Made by a program: the position numbers and the translations under genes
The notes under the pieces: model-generated
The model's database searches: none
The model's input: only the letters and a program-made list of their open reading frames with translations
Told to the model about the DNA's origin: nothing
DNA from: a virus
Direction: 5' to 3' (one strand)
IMG/VR virus record: IMGVR_UViG_3300025467_000022
Location: 1 to 50,874 of that record
DNA length: 50,874 bases
Shown here: positions 14,096 to 48,992 of the stretch, piece by piece
Layout: every line of letters starts with the position of its first letter
How positions within the stretch are numbered: position 1 is the stretch's first letter

Positions 14096-14128
14096 CTGAC
14101 AACGAAACCATATTTGGGAGAAATACTA

Positions 14129-17100
14129 ATGGCCACATTACAATCACCAGGCGTATCAGTTACAGTAGTAGATGAAAGCTTCTATACTCCAGCTGCACCA
14201 GGAACTGTACCTCTAATTTTTGTTGCTTCGGCACAAGATAAAACTAATCCATCGGGTACAGTTGCAGTAGGCACTCAAGCTGCTAACGCTGGCACAGTTT
14301 ACCTGATCACCAGTCAGAGAGATCTTACCGATACATTCGGTACTCCACTATTCTACACAGATGCGGGCGGAAACCCAATCAACGGTGGCGAAATTAACGA
14401 ATACGGCCTACAAGCTGCTTACAGTTTGCTAGGCGTAAGTTCACAGGCTTATGTTGTAAGAGCACCTGTAGACTTAGCTTCCTTAGCTGCTAGCTCTTCT
14501 GCACCTGCTGGCAATCCATCGGACGGCAGTTATTGGTTAGATACTACGAATACTGTATGGGGTATTTTTGAATGGAACCAAGCAACTGGTACATTCACTA
14601 ACAAGACTCCGATCGTAATCGACGACAGCAATTACGCTACTAGCACACTCGGCGGTCTTCCTGTAAATGGTCCTGCAGCAAGCATTGGTACAAAAGGTCA
14701 ATATGCAATTGTTGCTACCAGCGCACTAGATACAAACGTTGTTTGGTACAAGAACAGCGATGGTAACTGGGTACAGGTAGGATCGTCTGCCAACGAAGCA
14801 TGGAGCAATAGCAATACTTCTACTTTTGTAAGTACGGTATATGCTACAAGCTGGCCAGCAGTTGTTGGTACTACTACACCTACAACAATTACTACAGGTA
14901 GCACTTTTGTTATTAACAATTCGACTGCTACTATTACAGTTACTAACGGCGAAACACTTACCGCAGTTGCTTCAAGCATTAACAACGTTATGCGTTCGCA
15001 AGGCGTAGGTGCTAAAATCCTTAACGGTTCATTGGCATTGTATGCAACTAGTGCGGCTGCTTCAAATGGTACAACTAAAGACGGTAACATTGTTATTGCA
15101 TCGACTACAACTGCAACTTCGTTGTTGCTATCGGAATTAGGTCTTACACCAGGAACTTATACAGGTCCGACAGTATTTGTTGGTCCGCACACACAGTATC
15201 CGAACTTTACATCAGATCCAACTGGTAGTGTTTACATGAAGACTACCAGTCCTAATTCGGGACAGATTTGGACAGTTAAGAAATGGTCAGCAAGCTCAGA
15301 TGTGTTTACAACTGTTTCGGCTCCGGTATACAGCGGCGCCGCCGCCGCAATTTATGGTATCGATCCAATCGGCGGTGGTGCAAATATTCCAGTAGGCACA
15401 GTATACGTAGAAAGCAATTTTGATCACGGTAATAATACTTTCAATAGCCTAGGTACTAAACTTCCTACACTTGCTGAATTTAAAATCCATCAACGTGCTG
15501 CGGTTTCACCTACTACTATCACAAGTGCAGTAACAACAGGAACTATTTCGCTAACTTCAGGTACAATCGTTCTTGATGTGTCGATTCCGGGGTCAACTGG
15601 ACATTTTAACACTACTACAATTTCAGTATCTTCGGGCACTAATTTAGTACCATTAGTTACTGCTATTAATAACAGTGGTGTTCCGTACGTTAGTGCTACA
15701 CTCAATGCAAACGGTACTGTATCAATTTCGCATAGCACAGGTGGTGAAATTCGATTTACTGATGCCGGTAACATCTTAGGATCGGCGTTGTTTAATGAAA
15801 ATTCTACTCCTAACTTCTATGCTGTTGGTAATTATGATCCATCAGGTAGAACTGCAAAAGCAAGTAACTGGACTACATTAAGCTATACTGCATCACCTAC
15901 TGCACCGAGCACACAGCCAGCAAATGGTCAGCTATGGTACAGCTCAATTGTCGATCAGGTAGACGTATTGTATAATAATGGTACTTCGTGGGTTGGTTAT
16001 CTAAATGCATTCCCTACTACAGATCCAAACGGTCCACAGGTAGCAGCACTTGCTCCAACTACGCAAAGCGATGGTACTCCACTAGTTAATGGTGATATTT
16101 GGATCAGCACTGCCGATTTAGAAATGTACGGACATGAGATTTATGTTTGGAATAGTAGTTCACTACAGTGGATACTACAAGATCCAACAGATCAAACTTC
16201 GCCAAATGGTTGGGTCTTTGCAGATGCACGTTGGGCAACATCAGGTCAGTCAGTTACTGCTTCGCCGATTACATCGTTGCTAGCTTCTAACTACGTCGAC
16301 CCAGATGCTCCGGATCCTTCGCTATATCCACGAGGAACTCGACTATGGAATCTACGTCGTTCAGGATTCAACGTTAAGCAGTATGTGACAAATTACATCA
16401 ATGTCAATGCTAATGGCGGATACAACCTTCGTGTAGCAGGCGATCCGTTGGCCACTTACAATACAAACCGTTGGGTTTCTGTAAGTCCAAATAATAACGA
16501 CGGATCGGGTACATTTGGACGCAAAGCACAGCGTTCATATGTTGTTAAAACAATGAAGGCGTTAATTGACGGTAATATCGCAGTTAGAGATACAGATTCA
16601 TTGAACTTTAATTTGATTGCGTGCCCAGGCTACGTTGAAACAGTTCAAAACCTAATTGGTCTTAACACTGATCGTGGTATTACTGCATTTGTTGTTGGTG
16701 ACACTCCATTCCGCTTGCCATCTGATGCAACATCATTGAAAGCATGGGGCGACAACACAAATGGTGCATTTGACAATGGTGATGTTGGCGCAGTTAGTTA
16801 TGATCAATACACTGCACTATATTATCCAAGTGGATTTACCAATGACTTAACTGGTAACAACATTGTTGTTCCACCAAGTCACATGATGCTTCGCACAATT
16901 GCACTCAGCGATCAGCAAAGCTATCCATGGTTTGCTCCTGCAGGTGTTCGTCGAGGTGTTGTCGATAACGCTACTTCGGTAGGATATGTTGACGGTCAAA
17001 CTGGTGAGTTTGTATTAGCTTCATTGCCACAACCTACTAGAGACGTGCTAGCTTCGGTTAAAGTTAATCCGATTGCTACACTAACTGGAGTTGGTATTGT

Positions 17101-17476
17101 TGCATTTGGACAATACACTCGTGCTAATGTAGCAAGTTCGTTGGATCGTATCAATGTTGCTCGACTAGTAGCACATCTACGTCGTCAGTTAGATATCTTG
17201 TCCAGACCATACTTGTTTGAACCAAATGACAAGATCACACGCGATGAAATTAAGAATGCTGCACAAAGTATGCTACTTGAACTAGTAGGACAGCGTGCAA
17301 TTTACGACTTCATTGTTGTTTGTGACGAATCGAATAACACCCCTGATAGAATTGATCGTTCAGAACTTTGGATGGACATTGCTATCGAACCAGTTAAAGC
17401 AGTTGAATTTATTTACATTCCACTTCGCTTAGTCAACACTGGAGCAATCCAAGCTGGAACTTACACTCTAGCATAA
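14129..17476 (+). CDS. 18: Tail sheath protein gp18, enlarged
   Basis: gp18 forms the contractile outer tube of the tail. The ATG at 14129 follows GGGAG by 8 bases; an upstream TTG at 14114 is not needed. The N-terminus (LQSPGVSVTVVDESFYTPAA) and the C-terminal ~380 residues, with DRINVARLVAHLRRQLD and FIYIPLRLVNTG, are sheath core. It has 1115 aa against 659 in T4; the extra ~450 residues lie between about 120 and 690. They hold Trp/Gly/Pro modules such as DGSYWLDTTNTVWGIFEW, NGQLWYSSIVDQVDVLY and NGDIWISTADLEMYGHEIYV. In T4 the outer domains are also N-terminal insertions, so these probably decorate the tail surface. Confidence 0.9.
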   Translation: MATLQSPGVSVTVVDESFYTPAAPGTVPLIFVASAQDKTNPSGTVAVGTQAANAGTVYLITSQRDLTDTFGTPLFYTDAGGNPINGGEINEYGLQAAYSLLGVSSQAYVVRAPVDLASLAASSSAPAGNPSDGSYWLDTTNTVWGIFEWNQATGTFTNKTPIVIDDSNYATSTLGGLPVNGPAASIGTKGQYAIVATSALDTNVVWYKNSDGNWVQVGSSANEAWSNSNTSTFVSTVYATSWPAVVGTTTPTTITTGSTFVINNSTATITVTNGETLTAVASSINNVMRSQGVGAKILNGSLALYATSAAASNGTTKDGNIVIASTTTATSLLLSELGLTPGTYTGPTVFVGPHTQYPNFTSDPTGSVYMKTTSPNSGQIWTVKKWSASSDVFTTVSAPVYSGAAAAIYGIDPIGGGANIPVGTVYVESNFDHGNNTFNSLGTKLPTLAEFKIHQRAAVSPTTITSAVTTGTISLTSGTIVLDVSIPGSTGHFNTTTISVSSGTNLVPLVTAINNSGVPYVSATLNANGTVSISHSTGGEIRFTDAGNILGSALFNENSTPNFYAVGNYDPSGRTAKASNWTTLSYTASPTAPSTQPANGQLWYSSIVDQVDVLYNNGTSWVGYLNAFPTTDPNGPQVAALAPTTQSDGTPLVNGDIWISTADLEMYGHEIYVWNSSSLQWILQDPTDQTSPNGWVFADARWATSGQSVTASPITSLLASNYVDPDAPDPSLYPRGTRLWNLRRSGFNVKQYVTNYINVNANGGYNLRVAGDPLATYNTNRWVSVSPNNNDGSGTFGRKAQRSYVVKTMKALIDGNIAVRDTDSLNFNLIACPGYVETVQNLIGLNTDRGITAFVVGDTPFRLPSDATSLKAWGDNTNGAFDNGDVGAVSYDQYTALYYPSGFTNDLTGNNIVVPPSHMMLRTIALSDQQSYPWFAPAGVRRGVVDNATSVGYVDGQTGEFVLASLPQPTRDVLASVKVNPIATLTGVGIVAFGQYTRANVASSLDRINVARLVAHLRRQLDILSRPYLFEPNDKITRDEIKNAAQSMLLELVGQRAIYDFIVVCDESNNTPDRIDRSELWMDIAIEPVKAVEFIYIPLRLVNTGAIQAGTYTLA

Positions 17477-19897: not shown

Positions 19898-20278
19898 ATG
19901 TCTAATTATTATAATAATCTTCCACAACCAAATCAAAATCGAGACAGTACACAGTCTACACTTCAAATTTTTGATACATATAATCAAAAACCAGTTAGCA
20001 TCGATGCAGCAACTTACGATGCAATGACTGGATTTTTTGCCAGTAGGGGATTCGGAAAAGACTCTGCACAGAGCATGGCCTATGTTATTTTAAAACAGGC
20101 ACTAATTGATAAAATTAAACCTTTTGAATTAATCAGTTCATTAAAAGGGTTAGACGATCTACAGTTAAGCAATTTAATCACCGAGTTACTAAATTATAAT
20201 AGATACAAATCTAGCAGCTTGGGAACTGCTTCTCCTTTTACTCCTGCAGAAGAAGTGGCTAGGAATATCGTTGCATGA
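19898..20278 (+). CDS. Conserved phage structural-type protein, 126 aa
   Basis: Signature pieces are YDAMTGFFASRGFGKDSAQS, KIKPFELISSLKGLDDLQLS and ITELLNYNRYKSSSLG, a helical protein pattern I recall from environmental T4-like phages between tail and head-completion genes. The function is not known; a virion protein is likely from position. The stop overlaps the start of the gp4-like gene by 4 bases (ATGA), so the two are translationally coupled. Confidence 0.65.
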   Translation: MSNYYNNLPQPNQNRDSTQSTLQIFDTYNQKPVSIDAATYDAMTGFFASRGFGKDSAQSMAYVILKQALIDKIKPFELISSLKGLDDLQLSNLITELLNYNRYKSSSLGTASPFTPAEEVARNIVA

Positions 20279-20718
20279 GTATGAAATTCGCCAAGGATTT
20301 TTTCAAATTAAAGAATCCTGAAAAATATGTAGGGTTAGGTACTCCGATGTATAGATCGTCATGGGAATTAGCAGTAATGAAAATGTGCGACGAGAATCCT
20401 TCTATACAAAATTGGGCAAGTGAATCTATTAAAATACCTTACAGAGATCCCTTAACTGGAAAAAATACTGTTTATGTTCCAGATTTTCTAGTTGTATATG
20501 TTGATCGCAATCAAAAACATCATACAGAACTTTGGGAGATAAAACCAAAGAATCAAGCGGTATTAGAATCTGTAGGGAAGAATCCCTACAATCAAGCACA
20601 ATATATTAAAAATATGGCCAAGTGGCAAGTTGCTCGACAATGGTCAAAAAAACACGGCATTACATTTAGAGTTCTTACAGAAGATGATATTTTCCATTTA
20701 GGCGGTAAAAGACGATAA
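20275..20718 (+). CDS. 4: Head completion protein, gp4-like
   Basis: T4 gp4 (also called gp50/65) acts on the filled head before tail joining and has a nuclease-like fold. Here YRSSWELAVMKMCDENPSI, ESIKIPYRDPLTGK, VYVPDFLVVYVD (from about residue 67) and TELWEIKPKNQ (from about 84) form a PD-(D/E)xK pattern: PD, then E-x-K. The length of 147 aa matches the family (T4, 150). It may trim or check DNA ends at the portal. An in-frame ATG at 20281 is also possible. Confidence 0.75.
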   Translation: MSMKFAKDFFKLKNPEKYVGLGTPMYRSSWELAVMKMCDENPSIQNWASESIKIPYRDPLTGKNTVYVPDFLVVYVDRNQKHHTELWEIKPKNQAVLESVGKNPYNQAQYIKNMAKWQVARQWSKKHGITFRVLTEDDIFHLGGKRR

Positions 20719-29036: not shown

Positions 29037-29852
29037 ATGAATATCTATTATGTATATAAACTATTAGACCCAGATAGCTTAGAACCATTTTATGTAGGAA
29101 AAGGCAAAGGACAACGAGCCTGCTCTCATTTTAAAATTAAAAAGAACTCAGATAATCCTAGAAAAGATGCGGTAATCTTAGATATTTTTTCAAGAAATAA
29201 ATTGCCTTTAATAGAATATGCTTATCAAAATTTATCAGAAATAGATGCATATGAAAAAGAAGAGCTTCTTATCGCAGAATATGGTAGAGAGGGATTCGAT
29301 ATTAATGGAATTTTAACTAATATTACTATCAATTCTAGGCCTCCGAGTCAGCTCGGAAAAAAACGAATATTTACTGAATCCCATAAAAAGAATCTTTCAA
29401 TCGCTCTAAAAGGCAAATCAAAAACTGTACCCGGTTGGAATAAAGGTCTTACAAAAGAAACTGACGTAAGATTGAAAAAATCTGCAGAAACTAGAAAACA
29501 AACTGGCAATAATCATCAAATAGGCCAGAAATATGATCAAGCAAGAATTGATAAAATAAGATCTAAATTAAAAGGTAGAAATATTCCAGAAAGCCAAAGA
29601 CAAAAAATGTCTTTGGCAAAAAAAGGAAAAACTTGGGAAGAAATTTTTGGTAATGACGGTGCAACAATTCGCAGGGAATCTGTAATCAGGGGCGAAAAAC
29701 ATCACAATGCTAAAACGATACACACACCCGATGGCATTTTTCAAACTATAACGTCAGCAGCTGAATTTTATAAATTATCCGATTATTCTATTCGTAAAAG
29801 ATGTATGAATACAAAAGAAAAATGGAAGAATTGGTATTATGTTCACATTTAA
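29037..29852 (+). CDS. GIY-YIG homing endonuclease, Seg-like
   Basis: This is a selfish DNA endonuclease that spreads by cutting relatives lacking it. N-terminal GIY-YIG domain: YYVYKLLDP with FYVGKGKGQR (residues 5-27), then a conserved Glu in YEKEELLIAEYG. The rest has NUMOD3-type repeats (SQLGKKRIFTESHKKNLSIA, ESQRQKMSLAKKGK) and a C-terminal helix-turn-helix-like NUMOD1 piece, TSAAEFYKLSDYSIRKRC. It is free-standing, not in an intron, and lies between uvsY and the HARP-like gene. AAAGGA precedes the ATG. Its base composition is more A-rich than its neighbours, in line with transfer. Confidence 0.9.
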   Translation: MNIYYVYKLLDPDSLEPFYVGKGKGQRACSHFKIKKNSDNPRKDAVILDIFSRNKLPLIEYAYQNLSEIDAYEKEELLIAEYGREGFDINGILTNITINSRPPSQLGKKRIFTESHKKNLSIALKGKSKTVPGWNKGLTKETDVRLKKSAETRKQTGNNHQIGQKYDQARIDKIRSKLKGRNIPESQRQKMSLAKKGKTWEEIFGNDGATIRRESVIRGEKHHNAKTIHTPDGIFQTITSAAEFYKLSDYSIRKRCMNTKEKWKNWYYVHI

Positions 29853-29919: not shown

Positions 29920-31131
29920 ATGTATATTGAAGATCTAATCAAGTTAGTAACGAATAATTTTGGTCACCTTATTTCCTATAGAGACATGGAAATAATGCAG
30001 AGCATTTGTGATCAACTTTATCTAAATGATAGCGTTACTGAAAAGCAAGGATCTTTAATCCTTCGCATATTGAATACTCATAAAGATTCTCTGCGATCGG
30101 TAATTCACGATATTTCTGAAATTCTAGAAGCTGCTAACTGGCAAAAGCCATTTCGGACTTTGAATAATATTAGAAAAATTTCTATCGAAAAAAGAAAATC
30201 TCCGAACACAGGTATCGAAGGATCTAGTATAGTTGTTAGATTTCCGTTTGATAAAGAGTTAGTAGAACATTTCCGTTCTTTAAATTCGTCGGTTCATCAA
30301 TTGCATCGAGGTGCGTTTGATCAGAATGACAAGGTTTGGGTATTCAGTTTAACTGAGCACAACATTCTTAAGATCGGAGATTCTGTTCTATCTAGGGATT
30401 TTCAGTCATCGGAAGAGTTTCTAGAATATTATAACGAATGCAATAGCATTAGATCGAATATTGAAAAAAATATTCCATTATTAGTACATCGCGACGGACA
30501 ATATTCTATCGACAATGCTCATGCGTTGATCCTCCAACCAAATACTGATAACCTAGTCGAAGCACTATTCCATGCAAGATCTTATGGTATCACTACTTGG
30601 TGTGACGACATTGAAGACAAAATTAATAAAGAAGTAAACGCTGTTACTAAGACAGTATTGCTATCTACTAAGAAAAACAGACCGTGGTTTAACAGCGATG
30701 TCGTAGATATCAACGAATTTGAAAATTTGTTAATGCATAACAAACCAATTCTTATCATTGTCCCTGGGGGTAGCGAATTAGAACTCACAAAAAAGTGGGT
30801 TAAGTTTGCCCAAAGGTTGGGCATTGATAATACAGAGATTAGTGTTATGTTTAGATTGCCAAATGATCAAAATGCATTTAATCAATATGTTAAAGATCAC
30901 CGACTTAACACTGCACCTGATCACAATACAAGAATAGTGTTTGTAAGCACTAAAATTACCAAGCCGTTAATCAAGGCAGGTATTAAATTTAACACTATAA
31001 TTAATCTAGGATATTACCAGTATATGCATTTTTCAATGAACGCAGTGGTTGAAAATTCCTGTAATCTAGTGTATTATAGCATAACACAACCGGTAGTATT
31101 AAACAAATGGCAACAGCAAGAATTATTATAA
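29920..31131 (+). CDS. HARP-like/degenerate helicase partner of UvsW, 403 aa
   Basis: Residues ~100-155 read SIVVRFPFDKELVEHFRSLN, then DQNDKVWVFSLTEHNI, the pattern of the HARP domain of annealing helicases such as SMARCAL1 (phi-x-F-x-Y/F-x-x-x-L-hydrophobic, then W-x-F-x-L). The later part resembles the second half of an SF2 helicase: KPILIIVPGG, TRIVFVSTKITKPLIKAGIK and FNTIINLGYYQYMHFS. No Walker A is visible, so it is probably not an ATPase. Its end overlaps uvsW by 25 bases, a tight pairing that suggests the two act together on forked or recombining DNA. The function is inferred. Confidence 0.55.
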   Translation: MYIEDLIKLVTNNFGHLISYRDMEIMQSICDQLYLNDSVTEKQGSLILRILNTHKDSLRSVIHDISEILEAANWQKPFRTLNNIRKISIEKRKSPNTGIEGSSIVVRFPFDKELVEHFRSLNSSVHQLHRGAFDQNDKVWVFSLTEHNILKIGDSVLSRDFQSSEEFLEYYNECNSIRSNIEKNIPLLVHRDGQYSIDNAHALILQPNTDNLVEALFHARSYGITTWCDDIEDKINKEVNAVTKTVLLSTKKNRPWFNSDVVDINEFENLLMHNKPILIIVPGGSELELTKKWVKFAQRLGIDNTEISVMFRLPNDQNAFNQYVKDHRLNTAPDHNTRIVFVSTKITKPLIKAGIKFNTIINLGYYQYMHFSMNAVVENSCNLVYYSITQPVVLNKWQQQELL

Positions 31132-32591
31132 AAGACGAAATTAACGTCAAAATAGAAGGACTAGACTTAGATACTAGAAAAGAACTAGTAAAGAAGTTTA
31201 AGTATTTTCAACAGAGTGCAAGATATCAGCCAGCTTATCGGTTAGGAAGATGGGACGGGTGTGTTAGTTTCTTTGGTCTCGGCGGAACTACTTATATTAG
31301 TACACTAGATCGAGTACTTCCATTATTAGAACAATGGGGATACTATATCGAAGTCGAAGACCAAAGAACTAACGAACCCTTAGAGTTTGATAAAATTACA
31401 GAAGAGTTCTGGGGCGATCAAACTTGGCCCACTGGACATCGATTCGAAGGCGAGCCTATTAGATTGCGTGAAGATCAAGTTCGCGCAATCAATACATTTT
31501 TAGAAAATCCACAATCTCTCCAGGCACTTGCTACAGGTTTTGGAAAAACCATCGTAACTGCCACAATGAGCAAAATTTGCGAAAAATACGGAAGAACAAT
31601 TACAATTGTTCCAAACAAAAGTCTAGTTGAGCAAACTGAAGAAGACTTTGTTAATGTAGGATTAGATGTAGGCGTATACTACGGTGATCGCAAAGATTTA
31701 GATAAAACTCATACTATATGCACTTGGCAGAGTCTTAACATATTAGACAAGAAGAGTAAGAATCACGAACATGATATTATTTCTCTTGCTGAGTTTCTAG
31801 AAAATGTCAATACCGTTATTGTTGACGAAGTCCACCAAGCCAAAGCAGAAGTATTAAAAAATCTTCTTACTCAGAATTTACGAAATGCTCCGATTAGATG
31901 GGGGCTCACAGGAACTATTCCCAAAGATGAGCTAGAATTCGAAAGCATCAAGTGCAGCCTAGGAGATGTTGTAGGTCAAGTTAACGCACATGAGCTACAA
32001 GAAAAAGGAATTCTTAGCAATTGTCATGTAAACATTATTCAAACACAGGAATTTAGAGAGTTTTCTTCATATCCTGAAGAATTAAAATACTTAGTTACAG
32101 ACAAAGAAAGAATAGAATGGCTATCGAAGTTTATTAAGGAAGTATCTGTTTCGGGAAATACATTGGTATTAGTTGACCGAATCGAATGTGGCAAAAAGCT
32201 TCAACTCGAATTGAGTAATCTATTTTCTATTCTAAAAGAAGATCCAGATGTTAAGTTTATATCCGGCGCAGTTAAATCAAAAGATCGAAAAGAAGCATAC
32301 GCAGAAGTTGCATCATCTGATAATAAAATCACGATTGCAACGTACGGTGTAGCTGCGGTAGGAATCAATATTCCTAGAATTTTTAATCTTGTGTTAGTTG
32401 AACCAGGAAAATCGTTTGTAAGAGTTATCCAAAGTATCGGCCGAGGCCTGCGTAAAGCTAATGATAAAGATCATGTCGAGATCTACGATTTTACTGCGAA
32501 TACGAAATATGCTAAGAAGCATCTAACAGAAAGAAAACGGTATTATAAAGAAGCAAAATACCAATTTACAATCGAGAAAGTTAAAATATAG
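31107..32591 (+). CDS. uvsW: UvsW helicase (RNA-DNA and branch helicase)
   Basis: In T4, UvsW unwinds branched recombination intermediates and R-loops, and shuts off origin-dependent replication. SF2 motifs: I ATGFGKT (about 142-148), II VIVDEVHQAK (about 237-246), III WGLTGTIP, V ATYGVAAVGINIP and VI QSIGRGLRKA (about 441-450). The N-terminal domain has FQQSARYQPAYRLGRWDGCV, the DNA-contacting part of T4 UvsW. It has 494 aa, slightly shorter than T4. Its start lies inside the preceding gene. Confidence 0.9.
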   Translation: MATARIIIKDEINVKIEGLDLDTRKELVKKFKYFQQSARYQPAYRLGRWDGCVSFFGLGGTTYISTLDRVLPLLEQWGYYIEVEDQRTNEPLEFDKITEEFWGDQTWPTGHRFEGEPIRLREDQVRAINTFLENPQSLQALATGFGKTIVTATMSKICEKYGRTITIVPNKSLVEQTEEDFVNVGLDVGVYYGDRKDLDKTHTICTWQSLNILDKKSKNHEHDIISLAEFLENVNTVIVDEVHQAKAEVLKNLLTQNLRNAPIRWGLTGTIPKDELEFESIKCSLGDVVGQVNAHELQEKGILSNCHVNIIQTQEFREFSSYPEELKYLVTDKERIEWLSKFIKEVSVSGNTLVLVDRIECGKKLQLELSNLFSILKEDPDVKFISGAVKSKDRKEAYAEVASSDNKITIATYGVAAVGINIPRIFNLVLVEPGKSFVRVIQSIGRGLRKANDKDHVEIYDFTANTKYAKKHLTERKRYYKEAKYQFTIEKVKI

Positions 32592-34031: not shown

Positions 34032-34261
34032 TGAAGGATAAACTAGGATTTGCATTCAACTTAGGATGTAAAGTTGCTCGCGCAATATCAGTTGGTCGTA
34101 GTAGCACAGACCTCGCAATCTGTACTGTGACAAGAATCGAAGATGGAAAAATTTATCTCGATGATAGTAAAGTTCATATTAGATTCCCCGAACGGTTGTT
34201 AATTATTGAACAAGACCCGTTATATCGCATGGTTAAAAACTATGAGAATTCTAAACCGTGA
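34031..34261 (+). CDS. Small conserved-type phage protein, 76 aa
   Basis: A compact beta-rich protein: LGFAFNLGCKVARAISVGRS, CTVTRIEDGKIYLDDSKVHI and RFPERLLIIEQD. The pattern (basic GR, then TVT-x-I-x-D/N-G-K-I/M-Y-L-D-x-S-K) is one I recall from other T4-like phages near replication genes. The start overlaps the gp62-like stop and the stop overlaps the next GTG start, so translation is coupled on both sides. The function is unknown; a small SH3-like barrel would fit. Confidence 0.65.
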   Translation: MKDKLGFAFNLGCKVARAISVGRSSTDLAICTVTRIEDGKIYLDDSKVHIRFPERLLIIEQDPLYRMVKNYENSKP

Positions 34262-34953
34262 TCAATTTAGAGGCACAACCATTTAACTGTGTGCATTGCG
34301 GCAAGAGTTTTATGAAAGAGCGCACACTCATATCCCACCTCTGTGAGCAGAAGCGTCGTGCTCTTCAAAAAGATGAGAAGCGTGTCCAGGCTGGTTATAT
34401 GGCATTCAATAGATTTTTCCAACTTACACAAAATGCAAAGAAGAAAAAAAGTTATGAAGAATTTTGCAAAACTAGCTATTATAATGCTTTCGTCAAGTTT
34501 GGTAGCTTTGTCAATAATGTTAATCCTCTTTATCCCGATAAGTTTATTGATTATGTTATTAAAAGCGGAGTAAAGTTAGATCATTGGTGCAGAGACGAAC
34601 TTTATGAAAAATATCTTTATGATATGCTTAAAGTAGAACCTGTAGAAGCTGCGGTACAGCGTACTATTGCTACAATGATCGAATGGGGAGAAGTTAACTC
34701 TGCAAATTATACACATTATTTTAACTATGTTAATTTAAATCGTGCAGTACATGATATCAAAAATGGAAAAATCAGTTGTTGGGTAATGTTAAATTGCCGC
34801 AGTGGCAAGGAAATGTTGAGTAAGTTTAGTGACGATCAACTAGATATGATAGCTCCAGCATTAGACATGCCGCATTGGGTAAAGCGTTTTAGAGAAACGC
34901 CAGCAGATGTTGCGTTAGTTAAAGAAATATGCAAAGAGACCGGAATAGCATGA
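34258..34953 (+). CDS. Zinc-finger phage protein, 231 aa, GTG start
   Basis: Starts at a GTG overlapping the previous stop (GTGA). N-terminal zinc finger FNCVHCGKSFMKERTLISHL then C (residues 9-29, C-x2-C-x12-H-x2-C type), followed by EQKRRALQKDEKRVQAGYMA. The rest is helical: YNAFVKFGSFVNNVNPLYPD, WCRDELYEKYLYDMLKVEP and ISCWVMLNCRSGKEMLSKFS. I recall proteins with this finger and body as conserved in T4-like environmental phages; none has a known role. Position among replication genes suggests nucleic-acid binding. The stop overlaps the next ATG. Confidence 0.7.
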   Translation: MINLEAQPFNCVHCGKSFMKERTLISHLCEQKRRALQKDEKRVQAGYMAFNRFFQLTQNAKKKKSYEEFCKTSYYNAFVKFGSFVNNVNPLYPDKFIDYVIKSGVKLDHWCRDELYEKYLYDMLKVEPVEAAVQRTIATMIEWGEVNSANYTHYFNYVNLNRAVHDIKNGKISCWVMLNCRSGKEMLSKFSDDQLDMIAPALDMPHWVKRFRETPADVALVKEICKETGIA

Positions 34954-35336
34954 CTACACTTAATAAAGCCAGAGAATTTTTATCTAGATGGCGAATGACC
35001 ATTGTCGATTCTAACCGCAGGACACCTTCCTATCCGAAACATATCACTTATTATCGATATGATGATATCAACAATATGCCAACTCACTACGAAACTGAAA
35101 TTCTACATACTATTCAAATTCCCGAAAGTGCATTAGAAGCATTGGTAGACTTCTATGAACGGGTAGAAGAGAGTATGAAATACACAGGTAGTATGGATGT
35201 TTTCAATCATTATATTGAACGGCAAAACGCAGATAAAGCGATAAGAGAGAAATATCCTACAGTGCAAAAAGCCTACGATCAATATATGATGCTGCATAAG
35301 CTCGCAAAATCAGGCGAAAATAATGCCAGACGTTGA
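34950..35336 (+). CDS. Hypothetical phage protein, 128 aa
   Basis: The ATG at 34950 overlaps the previous stop (ATGA); upstream in-frame codons are ignored. The product begins MTTLNKAREFLSRWRMTIVD, has a central strand region with HYETEILHTIQIPESALEAL and a helical C-terminus (NADKAIREKYPTVQKAYDQY). No domain is recognised. It overlaps the DnaE-like gene by 14 bases, so the two are expressed together. Confidence 0.65.
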   Translation: MTTLNKAREFLSRWRMTIVDSNRRTPSYPKHITYYRYDDINNMPTHYETEILHTIQIPESALEALVDFYERVEESMKYTGSMDVFNHYIERQNADKAIREKYPTVQKAYDQYMMLHKLAKSGENNARR

Positions 35337-35892
35337 TTTAGATTTTGCTAACAGAGACGAAGTGCTATCAATTATACCACATATTCCGGCAATGATTAAC
35401 GGTAACAAGAAGCATAATACAGGTGTATATTGTCATGAAATTCCAGTTAATCCTCTCACAGGTTTATCTGCAATCGAGTATAATGAAGCAGAAGAGCGTG
35501 GATATTTTAAGATCGACTTTCTAAATGTCAATGTATATAAAGATATTCAAAACGAAGCACACTTACAAAAACTAATGGAGCAAGAACCATTATGGGATTT
35601 GTTAAAACAGGATGATTTCGTAAATCTACTATTTCACCTAAACGGACACGGAGATATTTTGAAAAAGACTTGCCCTACCTCTGTAGAACAATTAGCTGCT
35701 GTGCTAGCGATGATTCGTCCGGCTAAGAGGCATTTGATTGGAAAAGATTGGTCGACAATTATGAGTGAGGTTTGGACAAAACCCGTCGACGGAAGCTATT
35801 ACTTCAAGCGATCTCATGCAATCAGCTACGCAATGGTAGTAGTAGTTCACATGAACTTACTCTGTCAGAAATTTAGCGAATCTTCTTGTTAG
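35323..35892 (+). CDS. Mini DnaE-like protein (Pol III alpha palm and finger motifs), 189 aa
   Basis: It begins MPDVDLDFANRDEV, equivalent to the P-D-x-D-x-D-F motif of bacterial DNA polymerase III alpha, whose first two Asp (E. coli 401, 403) bind catalytic metal. Residues 61-72, YFKIDFLNVNVY, match the K-F-D-F-L-G-L segment with the third catalytic Asp (here D65). Residues 116-135 (KTCPTS, LAAVLAMIRPAK) match the ...ALYRPGP finger segment, and 161-170 FKRSHAISYA matches F-N-K-S-H-A-x-x-Y-A. The PHP, thumb, clamp-binding and OB parts are absent. From memory, close relatives occur in T4-like marine phages. Whether it polymerises is unknown. Ends 20 bases inside the convergent gene. Confidence 0.75.
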   Translation: MPDVDLDFANRDEVLSIIPHIPAMINGNKKHNTGVYCHEIPVNPLTGLSAIEYNEAEERGYFKIDFLNVNVYKDIQNEAHLQKLMEQEPLWDLLKQDDFVNLLFHLNGHGDILKKTCPTSVEQLAAVLAMIRPAKRHLIGKDWSTIMSEVWTKPVDGSYYFKRSHAISYAMVVVVHMNLLCQKFSESSC

Positions 35893-36262
35893 GGTTACGA
35901 ACGAGTTGAATAGATTTTCTTTTAATTCGTTTCTCAGCTATTTCGCTTAGATTAACTGTAGGTCCGAATATGATGTTTACATCTTTACTATTAAATGTCT
36001 TAATGATAGGACGGTATGGGGTCATATCTAGCTTTAAAAATATATTAATAGGAATCTTACGATTCGACTCCCACCACCATACTTCGCCTAATTCTAAGAA
36101 TCGTTGCTTATCATCATCTGATTTAAGCAATGAATAATCATAGATGCTAGTTACTTGCATATCATTGTTAATAATGATGCCGACATATTCTTCATCGCCA
36201 CACTGAATGCAGGTAATAAAGGGGAAATTCTGTTGGAATTCTTCTGTTTTGTTATGTTTCAT
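35873..36262 (-). CDS. Conserved phage protein, 129 aa
   Basis: Features: FITCIQCGDEEYVGIIINND, a WWWESNRKIPINIFLKLDM segment with three Trp, FNSKDVNIIFGPTVNLSEIA and a basic end KRIKRKSIQLVRNPNKK. The WWWESNRxIPINIFL motif is one I recall as conserved in T4-like marine phages, unassigned in function. It is the only minus-strand gene inside the replication block and lies between the DnaE-like gene and a virion-type gene, overlapping the former by 20 bases at the 3' ends. Confidence 0.65.
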   Translation of the reverse strand: MKHNKTEEFQQNFPFITCIQCGDEEYVGIIINNDMQVTSIYDYSLLKSDDDKQRFLELGEVWWWESNRKIPINIFLKLDMTPYRPIIKTFNSKDVNIIFGPTVNLSEIAEKRIKRKSIQLVRNPNKKIR

Positions 36263-37392: not shown

Positions 37393-38403
37393 ATGAACCT
37401 AATAGTGGCTACTTTACAGGCCGTCTTGCCGAGTGATCGTAAGATGACACCTACTGGCTGGGAAAGCTTCGATGCCCCCTGCTGTATCCATCGTGGCGAA
37501 ACTCGTGATACTAAAAAACGCGGTGGTGTTATCTTCAAAGGCGACGGATTTACATTTCATTGTTTTAATTGCAACTTTAAAGCAGGCTGGACTCCTGGTC
37601 ACGTATTAACTAATAACACACGTAGTTTAATGTTATGGTTAGGAGTTCCTGATAGTGAGGTACAGAAACTTTCTTTGGAGGTAATTCGGGTCAAAAACGA
37701 CCTCAAACCAGCAGAAAAGACCCTAGATTTTGTCCTAAAACCTAAGGATTTGCCTCAAAATAGCAAGACTTTTGCCGAATGGGTACACGAGGGCTGCGAA
37801 GATGAAAATTTACTTGCTACAATCGCCTATGTTTTAGATAGAGGAATGCAACTCGATTGGTATAAGTGGATGTGGACTGATGCACCTGGATATCAAGATC
37901 GGTTAATCATACCGTATTATCATGAAAAGAAAATAGTAGGTTGGACTGCTCGTAAAATAACTGAGGGTAAACCTAAATACCTAACGTCAGCACAGCCTAG
38001 TTATGTGTTCAATTTAGATGAACAAAATTATAACCGACGTTATGTAATTGTTGTCGAAGGACCGATCGATGCAATCACAGTAGACGGCGTTGCTGTTATG
38101 AGCAATGAAATTAATGAGACTCAGCTAATGAGGATAAATTCGTTAGGCAAAGAAGTGATCCTTGTTCCAGATCGAGATTTACCCGGATCTAAGATGTTGA
38201 ACACAGCAATAGCTCAAGGATGGTCTGCGAGTTTGCCCGATTGGGGAGATGACGTTAAGGACGTTGCGGATGCTGTGCGTAAATTTGGCAGAGTATATAC
38301 GCTTTTCACTATATTAAAATATCGAGAACATGGTGAAATAAAACTGACTATGATGAGGAAAAGAATAGAAAAATATGCAGAAGAACAACAACGCAACACC
38401 TAA
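37393..38403 (+). CDS. 61: DNA primase gp61
   Basis: gp61 makes RNA primers for lagging-strand synthesis together with helicase gp41. N-terminal zinc site: C30, H33 (in PCCIHRGE) with C57 and C60 (FHCFNCNF). Core: LIIPYYHEKKIVGWTARKI. TOPRIM motifs: VIVVEGPIDAITVDG (about 218-232, catalytic Glu) and VILVPDRDLPG (about 256, Asp-x-Asp). 336 aa; T4 gp61 has 342. No ribosome-binding site; AAAATA lies 5 bases before the ATG, a one-base variant of the leaderless late pattern. Its 3' end overlaps gp41. Confidence 0.9.
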   Translation: MNLIVATLQAVLPSDRKMTPTGWESFDAPCCIHRGETRDTKKRGGVIFKGDGFTFHCFNCNFKAGWTPGHVLTNNTRSLMLWLGVPDSEVQKLSLEVIRVKNDLKPAEKTLDFVLKPKDLPQNSKTFAEWVHEGCEDENLLATIAYVLDRGMQLDWYKWMWTDAPGYQDRLIIPYYHEKKIVGWTARKITEGKPKYLTSAQPSYVFNLDEQNYNRRYVIVVEGPIDAITVDGVAVMSNEINETQLMRINSLGKEVILVPDRDLPGSKMLNTAIAQGWSASLPDWGDDVKDVADAVRKFGRVYTLFTILKYREHGEIKLTMMRKRIEKYAEEQQRNT

Positions 38404-39823
38404 TTATAGTTATGAAATACAAAAATTGTATCTAGAAATGTTTATGAGCGATGCTATTACATTTATTCGCTGTGCTAACATTTTTGATCCAGAAAATTTT
38501 GATAGAAAACTCCAAGAAACTGCAGGGTTTATTAAGACATATGTCGACCAATACAAGGTTATGCCAGAAGCACAGATTGTTAATGCAAGCTGCGGAATGG
38601 AATTAAACCCTGCAGCACTTCCTGCAGAAAATTATGAATGGTTAATGAACGAATTCGAACAGTTTTCCAGACATAAAGGCCTAGAACGAGCGATTCTAAA
38701 ATCGGCAGATTTACTGGAAAAAGGTGAATACGGACCAGTTGAGAAGATGATTAAAGATGCTGTGCAAATATCACTACAAAAAGATATGGGTACAGACTAC
38801 TTTGAAGATCCTCGAGGCCGTCTAGAAGGACTTAAAAATTCCAATGGTCAGATTAGCACAGGTTGGCCAAGCGTAGATAAGAAGCTTTACGGCGGATTTA
38901 ATCGTGGCGAACTTAACATTTGGTGTGCAGCATCGGGTGGTGGTAAGTCACTATTCCTTGCAAATCTAGGATGTAACTGGGCATTAGCAGGGCTTAATGT
39001 TCTTTATTTAACGTTCGAACTTAGTGAAGCATTGGTTGCTATGCGTATGGATAGTATGTTAACCGGTGTTGCAACTCGTGAGGTATTTAAAAACCTTGAC
39101 GATGTTGAACTCAAAGTTAAGATGATGGGCAAACAGTCTGGTAGCATACAGATCAAGTACATGCCCAGCGGCAAAACGGCCAATGATCTTCGAGCATATC
39201 TAAAAGAATATCAGGTTAAGAAAGGGTTTAAACCGGATATTTTGCTAATTGACTACTTGGATCTTATGATGCCAATGTCAGTTAAAGTTAGTCCCAGCGA
39301 TTTGTTTGTCAAGGACAAATATGTTTCTGAAGAATTGCGTAACCTAGCAATGGAAACACAGGCAATTGTTGTTACAGCATCTCAGCTTAACCGTGCAGCA
39401 GTAGAAGAAATCGAATTCGATCACAGTCACATCTCAGGCGGACTTTCGAAGATTCAGACAGCAGACAATGTTATCGGTATTTTTACAAGTCGAGCAATGA
39501 AGGAACGAGGCCGTTATCAAATTCAGTTTATGAAAACACGTAGTTCTAGCGGTGTTGGACAAAAAGTTGATTTGGAATTTGATCTCGATACATTGCGTAT
39601 TAGAGATCTAGGAGAAGAAGAAGCTTATAATTCTGCGCCAAAACCTAGTGTATATGAAGGTTTAAAGAAAACTTCAACAATTAAATCAAATGTTGAATAC
39701 GACGGTACTACAGGCGAAATACGAGATCCTACTGAAGGTATAAATGTAGGAAAGGTTAGAGCCACAACAGGTAGCTCAAAAATACGAGAAATGATTGCTG
39801 GATTAAATTCTGAAAAAGATTAA
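38375..39823 (+). CDS. 41: Replicative helicase gp41 (DnaB-like)
   Basis: A hexameric 5'-3' helicase at the fork. The N-terminal ~160 residues are the helical collar domain. RecA-type motor: Walker A AASGGGKSLFLANLG (about 187-201), VLYLTFELSEALVAMRMD, Walker B DILLIDYLDLMMP (about 287-299), VVTASQLNRAAVEE and the arginine-finger region YQIQFMKTRSSSGVG. 482 aa against 475 in T4. It starts inside the primase gene (29-base overlap), matching their joint role as primosome. Its stop overlaps the convergent AlgH-like gene by 4 bases. Confidence 0.95.
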   Translation: MQKNNNATPNYSYEIQKLYLEMFMSDAITFIRCANIFDPENFDRKLQETAGFIKTYVDQYKVMPEAQIVNASCGMELNPAALPAENYEWLMNEFEQFSRHKGLERAILKSADLLEKGEYGPVEKMIKDAVQISLQKDMGTDYFEDPRGRLEGLKNSNGQISTGWPSVDKKLYGGFNRGELNIWCAASGGGKSLFLANLGCNWALAGLNVLYLTFELSEALVAMRMDSMLTGVATREVFKNLDDVELKVKMMGKQSGSIQIKYMPSGKTANDLRAYLKEYQVKKGFKPDILLIDYLDLMMPMSVKVSPSDLFVKDKYVSEELRNLAMETQAIVVTASQLNRAAVEEIEFDHSHISGGLSKIQTADNVIGIFTSRAMKERGRYQIQFMKTRSSSGVGQKVDLEFDLDTLRIRDLGEEEAYNSAPKPSVYEGLKKTSTIKSNVEYDGTTGEIRDPTEGINVGKVRATTGSSKIREMIAGLNSEKD

Positions 39824-46486: not shown

Positions 46487-47095
46487 TTACTTGATTACTT
46501 TGATGTTACCAGCAATTGATATACGGTGAGAATCTGATGTCTGAAAAGGATACACTTGATGTTTAAGATACGCAGGAAACATCATTAATACTCCTTCCCA
46601 AGTGTTATCAATATCAAGTTCGTATGTTGTGATTCCACCATCTAATTTGTTATAAACAAATTGAAATTTAGAGGCCACTTCTGTATTTGCACTTTTTGCA
46701 TTGGGCATCTGAAGTTCATCTTTTAAATTGTAAGGAATAGTAATCCAAACAACCCAAGATACATCTAGATAATGATAATGCAGAGGATTGTATTCATGTT
46801 TTTTTTGAAAATTAACCCAAGATACTGAATCAATTACATAATCATTGTTCTGATAAAAATCAAACATTTTTCTATATTCTAAAAATGTTTGTTCTACACA
46901 ATTTTTAAATGATCCTTGTATGTTGTAAGTTAGTTCCGTTTCGATGTGTCCTGCAAGATCGTGATTATATGACTGCGGCTTTAAATCTACTTGTCGTTGA
47001 AGGTCTTTGGTTAATTCCGCAAATATTCTAACCGGTATTCTAGTTTTAATTACGCCCGGATTTGGTAATCTTACCTCTGAAAATTCTAAATTCAT
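46487..47095 (-). CDS. 2-oxoglutarate/Fe(II) oxygenase-like protein, 202 aa
   Basis: Double-stranded beta-helix features: YNPLHYHYLDVSWVVWITIP with the H-x-H...D type facial triad start, a strand-turn FVYNKLDGGITTYELDID, then MMFPAYLKHQVYPFQTSDSH and RISIAGNI, holding the distal His and the Arg that binds 2-oxoglutarate. It resembles the phage-common 2OG-FeII_Oxy_5 group. The exact ligands need a model. It is the third such protein in the fibre block and overlaps the neighbour by 4 bases. Hydroxylation of a phage or host protein is a guess. Confidence 0.7.
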   Translation of the reverse strand: MNLEFSEVRLPNPGVIKTRIPVRIFAELTKDLQRQVDLKPQSYNHDLAGHIETELTYNIQGSFKNCVEQTFLEYRKMFDFYQNNDYVIDSVSWVNFQKKHEYNPLHYHYLDVSWVVWITIPYNLKDELQMPNAKSANTEVASKFQFVYNKLDGGITTYELDIDNTWEGVLMMFPAYLKHQVYPFQTSDSHRISIAGNIKVIK

Positions 47096-47322: not shown

Positions 47323-47753
47323 TAAAATTTTATTTCCAAAAATTCCGGGCTACCTATTTGGTTCCACCCTCCATTAATCTGATAATTTATATTTAGATTG
47401 TTGTTTAGAGCATATTGTATAGCCCAACTAAGTACATCGGCTCTTAATATTTCGCCTGCTTCTATCAATTCAAAATATTCAATATCACCGATTTTCCTCC
47501 AAGTTAATATTGCATTCACTTCGTCAGGTTTCATCCAAGCAGGAATAGTGTCTTTATCTAATGGAAAATTATCATCCCCTAACCACATGCATTTATACGA
47601 TTTACAAGGATTATCCGGACGAGTTGGATATATCGAACAGCCTGTTTTATTTAAAAAATGGCATTTTCTACTTTTCCAAAAAGTATAGCCATGTGCCACT
47701 CCGTGGAGATGACCTTCGCAACATTTCTGACACGAACCACATTCTCTCATCAA
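47322..47753 (-). CDS. YkgJ-like Cys-cluster protein, 143 aa
   Basis: N-terminal Cys motif CGSCQKCCEGHLH (C5, C8, C11, C12) followed by KCHFLNKTGCSIYPTRPDNP and CKSYKCMWL. This is the pattern of the YkgJ/CxxCxxCC family, proposed to bind zinc or an iron-sulphur cluster. The C-terminal half is helical. It overlaps genes on both sides, one of which is an oxygenase. Such proteins are often found near 2-oxoglutarate oxygenases in phages; a role in metal delivery or modification is inference. Confidence 0.8.
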   Translation of the reverse strand: MMRECGSCQKCCEGHLHGVAHGYTFWKSRKCHFLNKTGCSIYPTRPDNPCKSYKCMWLGDDNFPLDKDTIPAWMKPDEVNAILTWRKIGDIEYFELIEAGEILRADVLSWAIQYALNNNLNINYQINGGWNQIGSPEFLEIKF

Positions 47754-48388
47754 ATGATCTCCGCAGTTGCTGGATAGATCATCTTCTCAGATATCGGTCG
47801 AGTAGCAATATTCATATGAATAAATTTAAAAGGTTTAGATGACGGATTTCTTGTAAAACTGTGTGGTAGCCAAGAATTAGCATACATTAATGTACCCGGT
47901 TCTGGAGTAAAATTAATTGTAGATGATGCCATGGTTAACTGTGTAGAGTCACGTTCTACCATTTCATTCATTATTTTTGTAGGTCTCGGATCGTGTACAA
48001 CTAATCTCGGTGGATCTTTAGGACATTCTAAAAAATAAAAAGCTACAAGTTGTGAATCGTTGTGAACATGATACTCCATCGAGGAATACTTATGATGCTC
48101 TTGGCACCATCCTTCGGTAAAATATGTTTCGAATTTTTCCATATCGTACCCTTGATCATTTAATAAATTCCAAGAGGTATTCACTACATATTCTAAGAAC
48201 GGTGTTAATCGAGGATCTGATAAAATATCAATTTGAAGTACTGGATAAACATCGTCGATTTTATTTGATTTACGATGTAAAGAGAGAGATTCATTGCTTA
48301 CTGTCCTGGCAATATCTAAAAATTCAGGTTTTTTAATACTGTATATCGGTGAAACAAAATAATGCCACTGATCGAGGACGTCTGTCAT
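47750..48388 (-). CDS. 2-oxoglutarate/Fe(II) oxygenase-like protein, 212 aa
   Basis: DSBH motif: SMEYHVHNDSQLVAFYFLEC with the first ligands (H-x-H/N-D), a strand DPPRLVVHDPRPTKI and the distal part PEPGTLMYANSWLPHSFTRN, then FKFIHMNI. The cluster resembles 2OG-FeII_Oxy_5; where most relatives have R-I-S-I-x-F-N for 2-oxoglutarate binding, this has KFIHMNI, so cosubstrate binding may differ. TAGGA precedes the ATG. It overlaps the YkgJ-like gene by 4 bases. Confidence 0.75.
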   Translation of the reverse strand: MTDVLDQWHYFVSPIYSIKKPEFLDIARTVSNESLSLHRKSNKIDDVYPVLQIDILSDPRLTPFLEYVVNTSWNLLNDQGYDMEKFETYFTEGWCQEHHKYSSMEYHVHNDSQLVAFYFLECPKDPPRLVVHDPRPTKIMNEMVERDSTQLTMASSTINFTPEPGTLMYANSWLPHSFTRNPSSKPFKFIHMNIATRPISEKMIYPATAEII

Positions 48389-48395
48389 AAAATTC

Positions 48396-48992
48396 CTACT
48401 TGAATCTCGGGCCAGTTAGCCAAACGACTAATGTTTTTCGAGTTCCGTTAGTAACAGGAGTTACTCTGTGTAGTATAAACGATGGAAACGCAGAAATCAA
48501 CCCCTTTTCTTTGTCGACCTTACTCGGAACAGGTCCATCAAAAATTTCTAAATCTCCGCCTTCGTATTCTGAGGGATCAGATAATTGTAATACTAAACTT
48601 AGTTTACGAGGAGTATCAGAGGTCGAACCTCCACGATCTAGATGCCAGGTATAATGCCCGCCTGTGTCGTCATAGATTGTGTACTGTAAATCTTCAACGA
48701 ATCCCCAAATATCAAAGTCAAAAAATTGTCCATTTAGTTGCCTTGCAACATATCCTAATCGATCATATATAAATTGTGTGTCTTCAGTTAGTGCCATCCA
48801 TCCAGTATTCGATTGTCGAATACTGTCATCTACGTTTCCTCGGCCACCTATAGTTGCAGAAGTAATAGTGAGCCGATCACCGATTTCAATTATGCGAGCA
48901 AGTTCGCTTTCATTGAACCCATTTTTCCAAGTTGCAAATGAAATTTCTGGAATAGCAATCGATGGTGGCGGCGTAAGTTGATACACTGACAT
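48396..48992 (-). CDS. Prolyl-4-hydroxylase-type 2OG-Fe(II) oxygenase, 198 aa
   Basis: Strong match to the P4H/PKHD pattern: TWHLDRGGSTSDTPRKLSLV with the H-x-D pair, LQLSDPSEYEGGDLEIFDG, then LISAFPSFILHRVTPVTNGT with the distal His, and RKTLVVWLTGPRF with the 2-oxoglutarate-binding Arg. The family hydroxylates proline or related residues, or small molecules. All catalytic residues appear present. It lies upstream of the other oxygenases, at a tight junction with the 49705 gene. Fibre or glycine-rich proteins nearby are plausible substrates. Confidence 0.9.
   Translation of the reverse strand: MSVYQLTPPPSIAIPEISFATWKNGFNESELARIIEIGDRLTITSATIGGRGNVDDSIRQSNTGWMALTEDTQFIYDRLGYVARQLNGQFFDFDIWGFVEDLQYTIYDDTGGHYTWHLDRGGSTSDTPRKLSLVLQLSDPSEYEGGDLEIFDGPVPSKVDKEKGLISAFPSFILHRVTPVTNGTRKTLVVWLTGPRFK

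Follow-up and report, generated by a model that had tools for sequence, protein, structure and literature searches.

Comparative analysis of jumbo phage genomes previously uncovered a “phage-specific minimal version” of the bacterial Pol III alpha subunit in the phages of group 2.2 (Iyer et al. 2021; PMC7824862). From genome data, these authors described two distantly encoded proteins that accompany a family B polymerase (PolB), and suggested that the two proteins together reconstitute an enzyme (PMC7824862). A truncated Pol III alpha had been noted earlier in CBB (PMC5259590), as had a Pol III alpha subunit in Atu_ph07 (PMC6102473). In this split Pol III alpha, which occurs in PolB-carrying phages, an NTP-binding protein (N-unit) and a Mg2+- and DNA-binding protein (C-unit) are encoded far apart, whereas cellular Pol III alpha carries the front of the palm, including its GRGS loop, upstream of the DxD motif in the same chain. 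Our literature search found no experimental work on either unit.

The 50.9-kb window examined herein (the whole stretch of 50,874 nucleotides from a metagenomic virus) carries a genuine ORF with a single in-frame ATG start, whose 189-aa product comprises the second half of a Pol III palm plus reduced fingers. We consider it probable, at odds of roughly two in three, that this protein is one half, the C-terminal one, of a mini Pol III alpha made up of two proteins, and that it assembles with an N-unit as a probable distributive accessory enzyme beside PolB. Together, the two units would provide a Pol III catalytic core in two parts that is devoid of the PHP, thumb, and C-terminal domains. The relevant features of the window are listed in Table 1.

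Table 1. The C-unit gene, its Pol III motifs, and neighboring genes (window coordinates; residue numbers with one-letter codes refer to the C-unit unless marked E. coli).
Feature	Position	Strand	Support or remark
C-terminal unit (C-unit) of split mini Pol III alpha, 189 aa	35323..35892	+	PHROG_11778 5.5e-63; profile and fold match to Pol III alpha
P2-D3-V4-D5 codons, equivalent to E. coli P400-D403; metal ligands D401 and D403	35326..35337	+	D3 and D5 invariant in 23 relatives
H31-N-T-G34 codons, equivalent to E. coli H511-G514, just past the thumb	35413..35424	+	H31 and G34 invariant; E. coli GKHAGG at 509-514
K63-I-D65-F-L67 codons, equivalent to E. coli K553-L557; third metal ligand D555	35509..35523	+	K63, D65, and L67 invariant; hhalign
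AVLAMIRP, residues 126-133, fingers segment equivalent to E. coli ...ALFRP (R639-P640)	35698..35721	+	I131, R132, and P133 invariant
FKRSHAISYA, residues 161-170, equivalent to E. coli FNKSHSAAYA; H165 = steric-gate H760, Y169 = Y764	35803..35832	+	H165 and Y169 invariant
UvsW-like helicase, upstream end of conserved replication block	31107..32591	+	phrog_16 6.2e-74
C2H2-like zinc-finger protein, upstream neighbor kept in several relatives	34258..34953	+	phrog_11058 1.4e-56
135-aa ORF, no assigned function, 14-nt overlap with the C-unit	34929..35336	+	small ORF immediately upstream in relatives too
Converging small gene, directly downstream of the C-unit in most relatives	35873..36262	-	phrog_11637 6.2e-34
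DNA primase, T4 gp61-like position	37393..38403	+	phrog_47 1.2e-35
DnaB-like replicative helicase, T4 gp41-like position	38375..39823	+	phrog_19 6.2e-77

Family profiles are required to place this protein, because searches with its single sequence point toward Pol III alpha but are too weak on their own (Pfam, 0.1, below cut-off; PDB phmmer, 0.71). In a PHROG profile search, the family PHROG_11778, annotated as “DNA polymerase,” matches residues 3-182 with E = 5.5e-63, and the full-length Pol III family phrog_405 matches at 1.2e-6. A family profile and a structure prediction point the same way. Specifically, a profile built from 23 C-unit sequences retrieves only Pol III alpha chains from the PDB (nine of nine matches, best 0.0058), and an AlphaFold2 model of the C-unit (mean pLDDT 83.5, pTM 0.72) has Pol III alpha or PolC at places 1-15 of a PDB fold search, the first seven with probabilities of 0.99-1.00. 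A model of the N-unit (pLDDT 90.2) likewise returns Pol III alpha or PolC at places 1-16; Foldseek E-values for the two models do not pass 0.001, and the TM-scores are modest. On the strength of these profile comparisons, the resemblance of the 189-aa protein to Pol III alpha is homology, and chance is excluded.

Four motifs had been recognized in the protein by the first-pass annotation, namely PDVD (residues 2-5), KIDFL (63-67), AVLAMIRP (126-133), and FKRSHAISYA (161-170), and three of its aspartates had been equated with the catalytic aspartates of the E. coli enzyme. The motifs are indeed located at these residues, and the assignment holds. In full, M1 corresponds to E. coli M399, D3 to D401, D5 to D403, H31 to H511, G34 to G514, K63 to K553, D65 to D555, R132-P133 to R639-P640, H165 to H760, and Y169 to Y764. 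Every one of these residues except M1 is invariant in the 23 sequences, among which identity falls to 36%. Invariant columns number 19 of 189 in this set, and they include the equivalents of D401, D403, K553, D555, and H760 (hypergeometric 6e-6), the last of which is the proposed steric gate by which E. coli Pol III alpha rejects ribonucleotides (PMC8485763). An hhalign comparison with the E. coli sequence was correct between the KHxxG region and the IRP segment; outside this stretch, the DxD end and the C-terminal end of the C-unit were misplaced owing to the deletions in the thumb and fingers. These two ends were therefore placed by motif, by PDB profile alignment, and by the junction between N-unit and C-unit.

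The absence of most of DnaE, which had also been remarked on at first reading, is borne out for the PHP, thumb, and C-terminal parts, whereas the front of the palm proves to be encoded by a separate gene in relatives. The thumb (about 433-510 in E. coli) is absent from the C-unit, such that 23 residues from F8 to H31 stand in place of about 105 in E. coli (406-510, thumb). Similarly, about 27 residues link IRP to FKRSHA, compared to about 115 in E. coli, and the RRAMGKK fingers segment (E. coli 709-715) is missing, a loss for which we found no published description. The 189-aa C-unit thus falls short of the canonical DnaE/PolC domain set (PHP, thumb, complete fingers, clamp-binding, and C-terminal domains). 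PF07733 has no match in the window, and DNA_pol3_finger (PF17657) has only a sub-threshold match, to C-unit residues 86-135. A PF17657 search of nine complete phages for another protein that might supply the missing part of the fingers recovered only the C-units and one weak, probably unrelated frame.

With neither thumb nor RRAMGKK segment, templated synthesis may be weak or absent, and high processivity is unlikely given that the thumb and the clamp-binding parts are missing. The main rival to our interpretation starts from the same losses: the halves would assemble, but the product would be a nucleotidyltransferase rather than a template-directed polymerase, active for example in untemplated end addition or in nucleotide or protein modification. 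Loss of the DNA-gripping thumb and of the RRAMGKK fingers segment, with active-site residues kept, is what such an enzyme might look like. Against it stand the invariant steric-gate histidine, proposed to reject ribonucleotides at the polymerase active site, and the location of the gene inside the replication block in most relatives; we regard this alternative as unlikely but worth serious consideration.

The small size of the C-unit, far below that of every cellular Pol III alpha, might also be explained if the gene were a decayed or truncated fragment or an assembly artefact, but this is highly implausible and is ruled out by conservation. The C-unit has matches in 37 IMG/VR loci and in 107 phage records, and in 88 of the latter the match spans 80% or more of the protein; length, ends, and context are similar in dozens of independent phages. 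The identical window sequence of the C-unit was recovered in several independent assemblies. In addition, comparison with the 97%-identical C-unit of relative L005 yields a dN/dS of about 0.05 (dN 0.012, dS 0.236), indicating that the gene is under purifying selection.

The front of the palm is supplied by the N-unit, a member of PHROG_11127 about 170-210 aa in length (~175 aa). In each of the nine examined phage records that carry a C-unit (Phosso, RaK2, Atu_ph07, Cassandra, GAP32, XacN1, SCTP-2, Ec-M-J, and Vibrio 2.275.O, the last a 349-kb record titled partial), the N-unit is a separate ORF that matches PF07733 above cut-off at positions of about 16-98 only. Its C-terminus reads “...GRGSSVASYvLYLIGvHkvdSikYdLDiEFLK-stop.” The N-unit profile aligns with residues 217-393 of E. 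coli DnaE (7e-5), and hhalign (3e-8) ends at residue 394. Thus, the N-unit ends at about N393 in E. coli numbering, and the C-unit starts six residues on, at M399. About 80 metagenomic N-units stop at, or a few residues from, an EFL[KR]-type end (equivalent to E. coli FLN391-393), and C-units across the group begin at or near the M399 equivalent. Judging from these alignments, all members of the group split a single Pol III palm across two genes at a common position.

In XacN1 the two genes lie about 15 kb apart, and in Atu_ph07 and Phosso, at the other extreme, more than 150 kb; direct adjacency or fusion was sought among the N-unit loci and not found. A single N-unit query against viral contigs returned nothing, and an N-unit alignment returned hundreds of matches. 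Among nine N-unit-bearing virus contigs of at least 190 kb, seven also carry a C-unit. The two others (191 and 359 kb) also lack a recognizable helicase of the type found in the window, so they may have no such replication block or a divergent one. Four more contigs of this kind were examined later; a C-unit was seen in two of them and not in the other two, which exceed 200 kb. As these contigs are fragments, absence of the C-unit from them is weak evidence. Searches of the window by family and by motif revealed neither an N-unit nor other Pol III parts, so for this virus we infer the pair from its relatives. One sample yielded both a contig with an identical C-unit and a 116-kb contig (G067, locus L345) that encodes an N-unit and an apparent T4-type PolB, and no C-unit. 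The 116-kb contig is a candidate for another part of the window's virus: its composition is compatible, and the tetranucleotide profiles are not decisive.

Many marine relatives offer a further comparison, in that they encode an unsplit, PHP-less Pol III of ~551 aa (PF07733 4e-43, PF17657 2e-14) directly or shortly downstream of the DnaB-like helicase. This version was confirmed in 221 IMG/VR loci (for example L066:532-2187:- on contig G008, L167 8001-9653, and L166-L245); none is present in the 11 kb that follow the helicase in the window. It resembles the split enzyme in being minimal, in lacking PHP, in its position in the same replication block, and in its DVDID and KVD catalytic motifs. 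It differs from the C-unit in being a single chain with a longer stretch between DxD and KHxGG and in keeping MYRRAFAKK. The C-unit is also present in all 20 unsplit-Pol III loci that extend at least 2.2 kb upstream of the primase. In 15 unsplit-Pol III contigs of 37-144 kb, no PolB was seen and there was no separate N-unit, the N-unit profile matching only the mini Pol III itself. The huge phage LR756508.1 has a 575-aa unsplit version together with PolB and no separate C-unit.

These arrangements bear on whether the C-unit could be a non-catalytic accessory or regulatory protein, such as a replisome-docking factor or a decoy for host Pol III partners, with the N-unit acting independently. Each unit does appear apart from the other, because some N-unit-bearing contigs show no C-unit and the unsplit-Pol III contigs have a C-unit with no N-unit within 37-144 kb. 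However, metal ligands that are invariant across very divergent members, a palm shared by two proteins with a fixed division point, and the lack of any retained region for binding host partners (clamp, tau, or epsilon) make such a role improbable. The first-pass proposal of a stand-alone repurposed mini-protein, decoy, or regulator is likewise not supported. Relatives encode the complementary palm half, the break is fixed, and the catalytic residues and the steric-gate histidine are invariant, which half of a two-chain enzyme explains better. For the marine relatives in particular, we tentatively suggest, as a rather doubtful option, that the C-unit may need no N-unit and may instead serve the full-length phage Pol III as a partner, a regulator, or an exchangeable half. 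A brief literature search found no description of this pairing. If true, as many as three polymerase systems (PolB, mini Pol III, and split Pol III) would operate in this phage group.

The gene context is that of a T4-like replication region, and UvsW, primase, and DnaB helicase are present in the window in an order shared with relatives. Specifically, the block reads SSB, UvsX, UvsW, zinc-finger protein, small ORF, C-unit, converging small gene, structural protein, primase, and DnaB helicase. The C-unit lies between UvsW and primase/helicase in most relatives, and the order around it is common to RaK2, GAP32, Phosso, Cassandra, Atu_ph07, and the Vibrio phage; in XacN1, primase and helicase are not directly downstream. 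The first-pass annotation had read the protein as a palm/fingers piece of Pol III alpha from a T4-like phage, a kind of phage that uses a family B polymerase, and the complete relatives agree with it: PolB accompanies both units in nine of nine phage records. No PolB gene was recognized in the window, which is part of the genome only.

Several other genes of the window deserve mention. Between UvsX and UvsW lies a GIY-YIG domain protein (29037-29852; PF22945 5e-7), probably a homing endonuclease inserted in the block. Just before UvsW, a 403-aa protein (29920-31131) has a weak HARP match (PF07443 8e-4, below cut-off) and no PHROG match. The tail sheath protein (14114-17476; phrog_10581 1e-213) is 1120 aa long, far above the usual sheath length. 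A protein with a TnsA-like endonuclease N-terminal domain (20275-20718; PF08722 1e-22) adjoins a putative small terminase, and three 2OG-Fe(II) oxygenase genes are clustered at 46487-47095, 47750-48388, and 48396-48992, all on the minus strand.

We propose that the split enzyme most likely works as follows. The C-unit would bring the three catalytic aspartates, the active-site lysine, and the steric-gate histidine, and the N-unit would bring the front of the same palm with its GRGSS nucleotide-binding loop. Association of the two is predicted to create a Pol-beta-type two-metal nucleotidyltransferase site that uses dNTPs and Mg2+. Because PHP, thumb, clamp-binding, OB, and tau-binding parts are missing, the product is most likely not a processive replicase. 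It would probably act distributively in gap filling, repair, or priming hand-off together with the phage PolB, in keeping with the C-unit gene's place in the replication block.

It is unusual for a bacterial-type replicase to be cut to about 365 residues in two chains and kept beside an unrelated PolB. If active, the enzyme would be a very small family C polymerase and a means of testing which parts of Pol III catalysis requires, and two unrelated polymerases would share one replisome. Since both units are small and directly expressible, the 2021 proposal is testable.

Compared to bacterial DnaE and PolC, the C-unit has the same order of palm and fingers motifs and retains the equivalents of D401, D403, K553, and D555, of R639-P640, of the steric-gate H760, and of Y764. 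In contrast to DnaE and PolC, the split enzyme has no PHP, thumb, RRAMGKK segment, clamp-binding, HhH, OB, or C-terminal domain, and its chain is broken between E. coli positions 393 and 399. The window protein belongs to the same family as the C-unit of the jumbo-phage split Pol III alpha (PHROG_11778, with the N-unit in PHROG_11127; PMC7824862) and probably represents the same split, although it comes from a metagenomic virus whose own N-unit would lie outside the fragment. Thus, this kind of enzyme was already described in 2021, and the C-unit reported here is a further member, for which our analysis defines precisely where the chain is broken and shows that the steric gate is retained and the RRAMGKK segment lost.
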